A DNA stretch of 64,000 nucleotides from Rhodococcus sp. Leaf278 (GTDB taxonomy: Bacteria > Actinomycetota > Actinomycetes > Mycobacteriales > Mycobacteriaceae), in contig NZ_LMRR01000001.1 in NCBI RefSeq assembly GCF_001426085.1, forward strand, positions 311,539 to 375,538, written 5' to 3'. Every line of letters begins with the position of its first letter. Within the stretch, counting starts at the first letter, position 1. A model generated the notes under the pieces. It was not told the origin of the DNA and searched no databases. It worked only from the letters and a program-made list of their open reading frames with translations. This document shows positions 31,337 through 54,948 of the stretch, in pieces. The translations under genes were made by a program, and so were the position numbers.

Positions 31337-31372
31337 AAGCGGCACTCACCCGAAAGGGTGGGTGCCGCTTTT
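31337..31372 (+). terminator. Intrinsic terminator of the str operon
   Basis: A 15-bp stem with one T-G wobble (AAGCGGCACTCACCC with GGGTGGGTGCCGCTT) closes on a GAAA loop and runs into TTTT, 23 bp after the tuf stop. Confidence 0.92.
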
Positions 31373-31398
31373 GCGTGTGTGCGGCTCCGTCGCCCGTG

Positions 31399-31443
31399 TC
31401 AATGGACCCTTGCACCGCTCGGACGTATGCAGTGGTTCATTCA
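31399..31443 (+). repeat. ATCAATG-type palindromic element, long-loop subtype (copy A1)
   Basis: Arms TCAATGGACC and GGTTCATTCA enclose a 25-nt loop starting CTTGCACCGCTCGGACG. Loop and arms match copies B1 and B2 downstream of glyA almost base for base. It lies between the tuf terminator and the convergent minus-strand membrane-protein gene. Confidence 0.8.
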
Positions 31444-31480
31444 CGCGATCGAGGTGGCCACCCAGAAGCACTCCCGTTGG

Positions 31481-31529
31481 GATCAATGTGGGTTTCAGTC
31501 GGTCAGAGTGCAACAAAGGCGCATTGATC
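31481..31529 (-). repeat. ATCAATG-type palindromic element, short-loop subtype (copy A2)
   Basis: GATCAATG and CATTGATC ends enclose imperfect inner arms (TGGGTTT / AAAGGCG) and a 19-nt loop whose minus-strand reading is GTTGCACTCTGACCGACTG. It is in opposite orientation to copy A1, 37 bp away. Confidence 0.8.
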
Positions 31530-51441: not shown

Positions 51442-51480
51442 CCCTGGTTCACCGGCCTACCCTCGCCCGCCCGGTCCGCG

Positions 51481-51525
51481 TCAATGGACCGTTGCACCGC
51501 TCAGACGTATTCAGTGGTTCATTCA
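51481..51525 (+). repeat. ATCAATG-type palindromic element, long-loop subtype (copy B1)
   Basis: TCAATGGACC and GGTTCATTCA arms around a 25-nt loop starting GTTGCACCGCTCAGACG. It differs from copy A1 (31399) at only a few positions. Confidence 0.85.
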
Positions 51526-51544
51526 CGCAGCATGCTGGTCTGCG

Positions 51545-51589
51545 TCAACGGACCGTTGCACCGCCCAGACGTATGCAGTGGTTCATTGA
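51545..51589 (+). repeat. ATCAATG-type palindromic element, long-loop subtype (copy B2)
   Basis: TCAACGGACC and GGTTCATTGA arms around the loop starting GTTGCACCGCCCAGACG, a direct repeat of B1 with a 64-bp period. The right arm here restores the TCAATGAACC complement. Confidence 0.85.
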
Positions 51590-51609
51590 TTCACACCCAC
51601 CCCGGTCGG

Positions 51610-51656
51610 ATCAATGTGGCTTTCAGTCGATCTGAGTGCAACAAAGCCACATTGAT
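51610..51656 (-). repeat. ATCAATG-type palindromic element, short-loop subtype (copy B3)
   Basis: Perfect 14-bp arms ATCAATGTGGCTTT (51610-51623) and AAAGCCACATTGAT (51643-51656) enclose a 19-nt loop; on the minus strand the loop reads GTTGCACTCAGATCGACTG. It is the best-formed copy and is inverted relative to B1 and B2. Confidence 0.9.
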
Positions 51657-51946
51657 TCACCCGGGGAGGGCACTTTCAGCACAGGCTGCCGGCCGACCTG
51701 GGGCGACGTCGACGTAACGCGTTGTTCACCGACACGCCAGACACTTAGCGAGCCGAACCTGGGTTTCGGCGGTACCGTCGGCAGTAACAGGCAGCGGGGA
51801 AGTTGCCTGTGCGGGAGGTTCTGATACGTGACTGAGCTAGTGAGCGCGAGAGGGCCGGTACCCGGTCCTCGTGTCACCTGACACATCGGACCCGACCGGC
51901 CGAGCGACAGAGTTTGCGCGGTGCCGCGCAGACGTAGGAGCCCCAC

Positions 51947-53958: not shown

Positions 53959-54816
53959 ATGTCTACGAACCTGTCCGACGGTGATCTGCTGGTCCGTTTG
54001 GAGCCCGCGGTCGAAGAGAATCTACGACGCCATATCGAGGCCGCGAGCGACTGGCACCCCCATGACCTCGCGCCGTTCGACGACGGCAAGAACTTCGCGT
54101 TCCTCGGCGGCGAGGACTGGTCGCCCGAGCAGTCGCACCTCAGTGATGTCGAAATCCTGGCCTCGACGGTCGCAGTCCTGGTGGCCGACAACCTACCGGC
54201 CTACCACCGCGAGTTGGCTCACGCGCTCACCGGCCTCGGGGCCTGGTGGAAGTGGACCGGCCGGTGGACGTCGGAGGAGAACCGACAGTCGATCGTGCTG
54301 CGTAACTACCTGGTGCTGACCCGCGCCGTCGATCCGGTGGCACTCGAGCGTGTCCGGATGGAACACATGACCCTCGGCTACGACGCGCCGAGTCATCATC
54401 TGCTCGACATCCTGGCCCACTTCGCCATCGAGGAAGCTGCCGCCGCGCTGCGTCACCGCAACACCGTCGCTCTCAGCAAGGATCCCGTGCTGGCTACCAT
54501 CCTCGGCAAGATCGCCGACGACGACGCCCTGCAGTCGACGTTCTACGTCAACATCCTGAACGAGGCCTTTGCCGTTGTGCCGGACCAGGCCGCGCGCGCA
54601 ATCGCCGACCGCGTGAACGGGTTCGCGATTCCGGTCGTCGACCTGCCCGAGCGCGGTAACAGCACCGCTGCACTCGCCGAAGCCGGCATCTACGACGCCG
54701 ACCAGGAACGCGAGAAGGTGTTCAAGCCCCTGCTCGCCGAGTGGAAGATCTTCGATCGCACCGATCTGGGCGAGGACGGACTGAAGGCACGCGAGGAACT
54801 CGCACACCTGGCCTGA
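53959..54816 (+). CDS. DesA-like acyl-ACP desaturase-family protein with degraded diiron site
   Basis: The 285-residue protein matches DesA1/DesA2 along its length (FDDGKNFAFLGGEDWSPEQ, DNLPAYHRELAHALTG, WWKWTGRWTSEENRQSIVLRNYLVLTRAVDP, WKIFDRTDLGEDG). Of the six diiron ligands in plant and mycobacterial desaturases, four appear changed: the Glu before DNLP is Ala (VADNLP), EENRH is EENRQ, and DExxH is DDALQ (Glu to Asp, His to Gln). Two Glu remain. A true oxygen-activating desaturase is therefore doubtful. Location near phoH2 and fum agrees with desA2 (Rv1094). TACGGT seven bases before ATG 53959 suggests a leaderless transcript. Confidence 0.82.
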   Translation: MSTNLSDGDLLVRLEPAVEENLRRHIEAASDWHPHDLAPFDDGKNFAFLGGEDWSPEQSHLSDVEILASTVAVLVADNLPAYHRELAHALTGLGAWWKWTGRWTSEENRQSIVLRNYLVLTRAVDPVALERVRMEHMTLGYDAPSHHLLDILAHFAIEEAAAALRHRNTVALSKDPVLATILGKIADDDALQSTFYVNILNEAFAVVPDQAARAIADRVNGFAIPVVDLPERGNSTAALAEAGIYDADQEREKVFKPLLAEWKIFDRTDLGEDGLKAREELAHLA

Positions 54817-54842
54817 GGTTCGGCCCCATTCGAAAGCGCCCG

Positions 54843-54910
54843 CCCCCGGCGGATCAATGCGACATTGTTGCAGTCAGAGTGACTGAAACAGACATTGATC
54901 CAACCGGGGG
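54843..54910 (+). repeat. ATCAATG-type palindromic element within a GC-clamped hairpin (copy C1)
   Basis: Outer arms CCCCCGG (54843-54849) and CCGGGGG (54904-54910) flank inner GGATCAATG and CATTGATCC arms and the loop GTTGCAGTCAGAGTGACTG. The element sits between the desA-like and fumarase stop codons and is a good candidate for a two-way terminator. Confidence 0.85.
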
Positions 54911-54948
54911 CGGGCGCGTTCAGCGGTCCGGCGAGGCGAACGGGGAAG

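Follow-up and report, generated by a model that had tools for sequence, protein, structure and literature searches.

The stretch of DNA analyzed here (the window, 64,000 nucleotides of a contig of Rhodococcus sp. Leaf278) carries six copies of a palindromic element, distributed over three intergenic loci. One locus lies behind tuf, one between glyA and a phoH-like gene, and the third is the convergent gap between desA and fumC; the genes beside the copies were named by their Pfam domains. All six copies put forward in the original prediction were located, and the features at the three loci are as follows.

31337-31370, plus strand: hairpin of tuf resembling a terminator, with TTTT after it; lies upstream of the elements and is given as context, not as a family member
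31398-31444, plus strand: long-type 47-nt element behind tuf
31482-31528, minus strand: short-type 47-nt element behind tuf; exact ends and loop match
51480-51526, plus strand: long-type 47-nt element between glyA and phoH; first of a pair 64 bp apart
51544-51590, plus strand: long-type 47-nt element between glyA and phoH; second of the pair
51610-51656, minus strand: short-type 47-nt element between glyA and the phoH-like gene; exact ends and loop match
54836-54852, no strand: left GC-rich arm flanking the desA-fumC element, from sequence and fold
54853-54899, plus strand: short-type 47-nt element in the convergent desA-fumC gap, within complementary GC-rich arms
54900-54917, no strand: right GC-rich arm flanking the desA-fumC element, from sequence and fold

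The original prediction gave all copies the ends ATCAATG...CATTGAT and divided them into two subtypes by the length of the loop, 19 nt in one of them. The ends and the quoted short loops are exact in the three short-type copies, but the ends are not exact in the three long-type copies, of which two have GTCAATG...CATTCAC and one has GTCAACG...CATTGAT, with loops that start GTTGCACCGCTCAGACG, GTTGCACCGCCCAGACG and CTTGCACCGCTCGGACG. The division by loop length itself was abandoned, because all six copies are 47 nt long with positions 22-26 reading TCWGA or a one-base variant of it (CCAGA, TCGGA), so that short and long copies have an equal layout. In this layout two 21-nt arms flank a centre, usually TCWGA, and each arm is a small palindrome, SAATG-N3-CWTTC. 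A single 47-nt layout with at least four stem types thus replaces the two subtypes, and the supposed 19-nt loop corresponds to the inner part, conserved and non-complementary, of one subtype. With up to three mismatches, the long-loop 23-mer had three matches in the window and the 47-nt layout four (catching four of the six copies), against 0.00 expected for each, whereas the short-loop 19-mer alone was weak, with five matches against 2.23 expected.

In the genome as a whole, exact ends at the distance of the element were found at 13 places and the reversed pattern at none. A covariance model built from 12 of these 13 copies gave 50 rows at E ≤ 1; as 20 rows repeat a place on its opposite strand, these amount to 30 places, all except one exactly 47 nt. 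A pattern based on sequence only found 28 places. The family had been expected to recur in related genomes, and it does so in many copies. This short-type covariance model matched 21 of 37 genus genomes (Rhodococcus/Rhodococcoides) at E ≤ 0.01, and at E ≤ 1e-4 it matched nine of 151 genomes at the level of the taxonomic family, seven of these nine in other genera; the full layout, with near-perfect 21-nt arms around TCWGA, became apparent from matches outside the genus and from those in its divergent members. A pattern fixed solely at the TCWGA and SAATG-N3-CWTTC positions, with up to two mismatches allowed, matched 66 of 301 family genomes from seven of 31 genera, while its reversed control matched none; across the phylum it matched only the window's own genome among 296. 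Six genus genomes (G001, G002, G005, G012, G013, and G016) had no match to this pattern. Matching genomes have from 1 to 65 copies at up to two mismatches; G199, which is not among the 37 genus genomes, has 42 by the pattern, and G027 reaches 91 if three mismatches are allowed.

Known sequence families gave no name to the element. The 183-bp stretch at 51478-51660 had no match in plasmid or phage collections at E ≤ 1e-5, and Rfam 15 had none above its gathering score at the elements of the window or of nine loci, the latter yielding just microRNA hairpin models far below their gathering scores. No description of the family was found in the literature, a weak absence because the scope was open-licence PMC only and most matches were seen at listing depth.

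A count of arm pairing in elements selected partly by pairing is biased, and was replaced by one on a set chosen by sequence alone (178 distinct elements, reduced to 64 representatives), with column shuffles as control. Among the positions that the pattern leaves free, pairing in the 64 representatives was 0.83 against 0.42 shuffled at positions 1-2, 0.50 against 0.30 at positions 8-10 (maximum of 1000 shuffles 0.385), and 0.57 against 0.42 at positions 16-21 (maximum 0.495), and at position 12 it just equaled the shuffle maximum (0.562), although such shuffles overstate significance because the element sequences are related. Sliding the partner by one or two columns reduced all pairing to 0.11-0.39. 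When 15 representatives that are more distant from each other were used, pairing at positions 1-2, 8-10, and 12 was still above every shuffle, whereas at positions 16-21 it stayed below the shuffle maximum (0.556 against 0.578).

The short subtype gave a different result, as no covariation of inner arm positions was found among its 69 distinct copies. The pair 8-40 was Watson-Crick in 18 of the 69, fewer than the 28.9 of the shuffles, pairs 10-38 and 11-37 were not above shuffles, and positions 15-18 are conserved yet mostly non-complementary to positions 30-33. From these two pairing tests, the proposal that the inner stems vary while pairing is partly kept holds for the family, across its subtypes, and fails for the short subtype for which it was made. 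Recognition of a hairpin in the short subtype would accordingly rest on the outer 7 bp and TTT/AAA, because the inner positions do not covary. Compensatory stem changes were seen not only across subtypes but also between orthologues, as in L040 and L055, where ATCAATG/CATTGAT is set against ATCGATG/CATCGAT. With further copies present in relatives as well, neither of the two outcomes that would have refuted the original prediction came about. The copy concerned is kept with the same flanks in seven genomes (L006, L032, L033, L036, L040, L053, and L055); in the L006 group it lies ~50 bp before an apparent start codon and seems to be on the 5′ side, unlike most copies. A further observation on the short subtype is that positions 8 and 40 have C opposite A in 37 of the 69 distinct copies.

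Predicted folding was uneven, with two of the four folded window stretches weak (z -1.6 to -3.5). For the element at 31482-31528, z was -1.6 (minus strand) and -3.5 (plus strand), and that at 51480-51526, folded alone, had z -1.6. Strong folds were obtained for 51610-51656 with its GC-rich flanks (z -7.2 on one strand, -6.2 on the other) and for 54853-54899 with its GC-rich arms (z -9.1 and -9.9).

To determine the genomic context of 117 non-redundant elements, genes were predicted in the fetched loci by a simple finder based on codon usage. Convergent gaps hold 57 of them, tandem gaps 46 and divergent gaps eight, with five at a locus edge and one inside a predicted gene; these counts include orthologous copies repeatedly and elements chosen partly by pairing. 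The elements favor gene 3′ ends, with a median distance of 48 bp, and 37 of the 46 in tandem gaps are nearer the end of the upstream gene. For comparison, gaps of at least 60 bp number 14 tandem, 11 divergent, and 6 convergent in the window, and 120 tandem, 47 divergent, and 80 convergent in the element-bearing loci (the element-bearing gaps included), such that the convergent bias is smaller relative to gaps of the same loci (80 of 247) than relative to those of the window (6 of 31). Elements in doublets have preferred spacings of 60, 64, 74, and 90 bp (9, 11, 16, and 6 of 67 doublets, respectively), and in G027 arms form tandem arrays with a 30-bp period. A rule that doublets have C at their outer and G at their inner ends is not claimed, as it was fully held in just 10 of the 67.

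The desA-fumC slot was compared in 37 genomes (36 relatives and the window), by eye and then by script. A palindrome of the family occupies the same slot in 30 of the 37, and 26 of these 30 are exactly 47 nt; those of G033, G022, and G030 are 49, 51, and 53 nt, respectively, through extra AC or GT loop units, and that of G008 is interrupted by an insertion sequence. The script found 28 of the 30, missing the window's copy (too few pairs) and the interrupted one, and gave one unrelated match each in G008 and G005. In G035 the slot is taken by a terminator-like hairpin of the ordinary kind, and six other genomes carry a longer insert without any element. Four stem types share this one site: short in five genomes, TTGCAC in nine, GCAAC in six, and CATACGA in ten. 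In G023 a short-type unit is followed by a remnant, CATTCACGCGTTCAGGGG, which is the right end of the older TTGCAC type of its relatives. A small tree of ~200 coding bases from 26 of 31 genomes (G004, G006, G008, G031, and G036 being dropped by a length filter) placed the short type at two positions nested within the TTGCAC-type clade. Exchange between strains could explain one of these two placements, and more generally homologous recombination between strains could be the source of type swaps at a single site. As a separate observation, the insertion inside the palindrome of G008 (L168) is IS3-like (HTH_Tnp_1, rve).

Between glyA and phoH, elements were counted by eye in 21 of 25 genomes (24 of the 36 relatives and the window); G014 and G032 are without an element, and in G004 and G025 the hairpin is an ordinary terminator-like one. 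Of the 14 genomes of the window's clade, the window included, six have the short type and eight do not. In all eight genomes of the GCAAC and CATACGA groups that have an element at both loci, the stem type at glyA-phoH equals that at desA-fumC. A clean target-site duplication was not found, the nearest at glyA-phoH being just an imperfect CATCCGcG / CACCCGGGG. In G006 (L213) a smaller palindrome, AGATGGCTTGAATCTGACATTCAAGCCATCT, lies centrally in the CATACGA-type element of this slot, either as a nested insertion or as a rebuilt centre.

The tuf locus was recovered from 30 of the 37 genomes and was readable in 29. All 29 have a GC-rich terminator-like hairpin directly behind tuf, followed by at least three T in 28 (the exception is G036). 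Elements come after this hairpin in 15 of the 29 by script; degraded CATACGA-type copies were recognized by eye only in G006, G019, G028, G029, and G032, G027 has a single arm, and eight genomes (G004, G010, G011, G017, G018, G025, G031, and G036) have no element in the tuf stretch that was read. It is unlikely that the element serves as the terminator of tuf. At none of the three window loci did a strict scan find a terminator-like site that has a T-run, at a threshold that also missed the tuf hairpin. Together with the hairpin that all 29 genomes keep, eight of them without an element, this supports the original view that these are not plain terminators.

In several respects the family resembles REPINs, which are doublets of REP sequences that form a hairpin (Bertels and Rainey, 2011; PMC3116915). 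The available text of that paper describes two inverted small palindromes at a fixed distance, with constrained spacer length and hairpin capacity and with compensatory changes, as well as tandem clusters and intergenic copies, all of which have their likeness here. The combination of inverted ends and a complementary spacer that marks a REPIN was found across the subtypes, but not at the inner positions of the short subtype. Differences are that the unit here is 47 nt, compared to GI doublets in SBW25 with 16-mer starts 71 bp apart, and that copies are fewer than the 101 GI doublets aligned in that part of the work (PMC3116915). REPs, for which more than 100 per genome are given in the text available (PMC2817692), likewise exceed the copy numbers here (1 to 65, and 91 in G027). 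The GTAG/CGTC REPs, as described in the portion of Di Nocera et al. (2013; PMC3733652) to which we refer, also lie mostly between convergent or unidirectional genes near 3′ ends and occur as singles, dimers, and clusters, and the CGTC REPs also lack a dedicated transposase. However, no unpaired GTAG or CGTC tag marks the elements here: among 364 ends of 182 elements, GTAG was found just once (offset -7), the variant GTGG at no more than 12 ends at one offset (-4), and CGTC at 34 ends (offset -1), three of its bases there belonging to the long-type arm. The arms are 21 nt rather than the 8-9 bp stems of CGTC REPs (PMC3733652), and the 47-nt unit lies outside the 20-40 nt palindrome length of GTAG/CGTC REPs, single arms being shorter palindromes. 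In its available text the same paper (PMC3733652) does not mention Rhodococcus, Actinobacteria, or Mycobacterium by those names, although untagged REP-like families in M. tuberculosis and others are mentioned. RepRanger (PMC12306157) tabulates REP counts for three Actinomycetota genomes including an Arthrobacter; its text contains none of the terms Nocardia, Mycobacteri, Corynebacteri, RAYT, and Rhodococcus, and the likeness to it is by description only.

The usual mover of REPs is scarce. A RAYT-type Y1 transposase (PF01797) was identified in one of the 37 genus genomes and was absent from the other 36; among 14 other element-bearing genomes it was found in five and was absent from nine, including G199 despite its 42 copies. 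Each search also matched the domain in five control genomes out of 14, including E. coli. Unlike genomes with REPINs, the majority of the searched genomes with elements are thus without a RAYT, and we rejected the RAYT/REP system with its Y1 transposase as the mover on this distribution. Recognition by a transposase, one of the original suggestions, is an inference, the usual candidate being missing from nearly all genus genomes searched. The BIMEs of enterobacteria are mosaics of palindromes with regular spacing and alternating orientation, and in this they are similar to the elements here, from which they differ in sequence, spacing, and host group.

We propose that the family works like a REPIN yet stands outside the tagged-REP families; it is not classed with the tagged-REP/RAYT families because the tag, the length, and the association with RAYT were each sought and are not those of the elements, and an untagged, RAYT-free, REPIN-like family is proposed because RAYT and the GTAG/CGTC tag are both missing. 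Our preferred explanation, to which we assign a probability of roughly 0.6, is that the dispersed 47-nt palindromes are small mobile elements of the REP/REPIN kind, recognized as hairpins and copied behind genes by an enzyme that is probably not a RAYT. The form recognized would be the hairpin in single-stranded DNA. An enzyme acting in trans, likely other than the usual RAYT, would copy the elements and place new copies into sites behind genes, and copies may be kept where a hairpin behind a gene is tolerated or substitutes for a terminator. In favor of this explanation are the copy numbers and distribution, the pairing of arms across subtypes, the position behind genes, the presence and absence at orthologous sites, the differing stem types and the remnant in the desA-fumC slot, and the doublet spacings and arrays. 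Against it count that no transposase was identified and no clean target-site duplication was seen, that recombination could account for the type swaps, that inner arm positions of the short subtype do not covary and two folds are weak, that the convergent bias shrinks relative to gaps of the same loci, that plasmids and phages gave no match, and that copy numbers are low for REPs.

The strongest alternative, though an unlikely one, is that the elements are bidirectional terminators or stabilizers of RNA 3′ ends, the RNA hairpin being selected and gene conversion homogenizing the copies within a genome. Like intrinsic terminators, the elements are hairpins at gene ends and have slots in common with them: the bias toward convergent ends and toward the 3′ side in tandem pairs, the desA-fumC slot, which has a family palindrome in 30 of 37 genomes and an ordinary terminator-like hairpin in G035, the strong folding of two window loci together with their flanks (z -6.2 to -9.9), and the pairing of arms across subtypes would all be expected. 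A terminator role is possible at some loci, such as desA-fumC. However, the elements differ from intrinsic terminators in having no T-run and a fixed length of 47 nt and, at tuf, in being extra to a terminator-like hairpin, after which they come and which eight genomes have without them. Nor does the explanation fit the weak folds (z -1.6) of the long type and of the minus strand behind tuf, the inner positions of the short type, which show no pairing constraint, or the eight of 117 copies in divergent gaps.

Less probable still is that the elements are binding sites in double-stranded DNA, in which the arm SAATG-N3-CATTS is the dyad of a dimer and two dyads 30 bp apart, ~three helical turns, constitute one site that the tandem arrays of 30-bp period extend. 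The dyad is evident within arms, as G7-C11 was present in 148 left and 128 right arms of 153 and A4-T14 in 138 and 136, although T6-A12 was present in just 71 and 70 and positions 3-7 had belonged to the selection of the elements. Consistent with such sites, GAATGNNNCATTC is above its reversed control in the genus (95 vs. 0 in G027; controls 0 to 3). But the free positions between the half-sites covary across 30 bp, which a protein binding the duplex would not need, and the GCAAC stem type is without the inner CATTC half. An origin as MITEs of an ordinary DDE insertion sequence with shared ends would account for the inverted ends, the small size, and the presence and absence at orthologous sites, but is improbable to a slightly greater degree, given that glyA-phoH has no clear target-site duplication and that the arms are themselves palindromic and change type at constant length; no insertion sequence with these ends was encountered incidentally.

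If the elements are mobile units of the REP/REPIN kind, they may tentatively be read further, as a RAYT-free REPIN system with a constant geometry (47 nt, 21-nt arms) in which one sequence type gives way wholesale to another at fixed places in the genome, although we would sooner doubt this extension than rely on it. Were it true, the end of a convergent gene pair would be refilled repeatedly by whichever hairpin type is active in the lineage, and a hairpin-specific enzyme new to science would be required in actinobacteria of the Rhodococcus group. The means by which REP-like palindromes are spread when a dedicated transposase is lacking has been named as an open question for CGTC REPs (in the text of PMC3733652 that we cite). 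The Rhodococcus-group family offers a case in which RAYT is nearly always absent and species differ in the presence, type, and number of elements at the same three loci. As the stem types act as natural tags, these differences make both the mover and any role in termination directly testable. The family also allows intergenic palindromes, up to tens of them in each genome, to be annotated.

Several other features were encountered at these loci. In G022, G023, and G033, ~4 kb separates two long-type copies behind tuf from a short-type copy; the window's genome is without that ~4-kb stretch and the second long-type copy, and the break lies between hairpins. Another repeated hairpin, distinct from the family and containing GGCTCCGCCCCCAGTGGC, lies behind tuf in G017 (L250) and G010 (L258); G010 has it in tandem. 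Lastly, within desA, on the opposite strand (54277-54344, minus), there is a match to the Rfam family ASdes, a small RNA family of tuberculosis, with a score of 55.2 bits.
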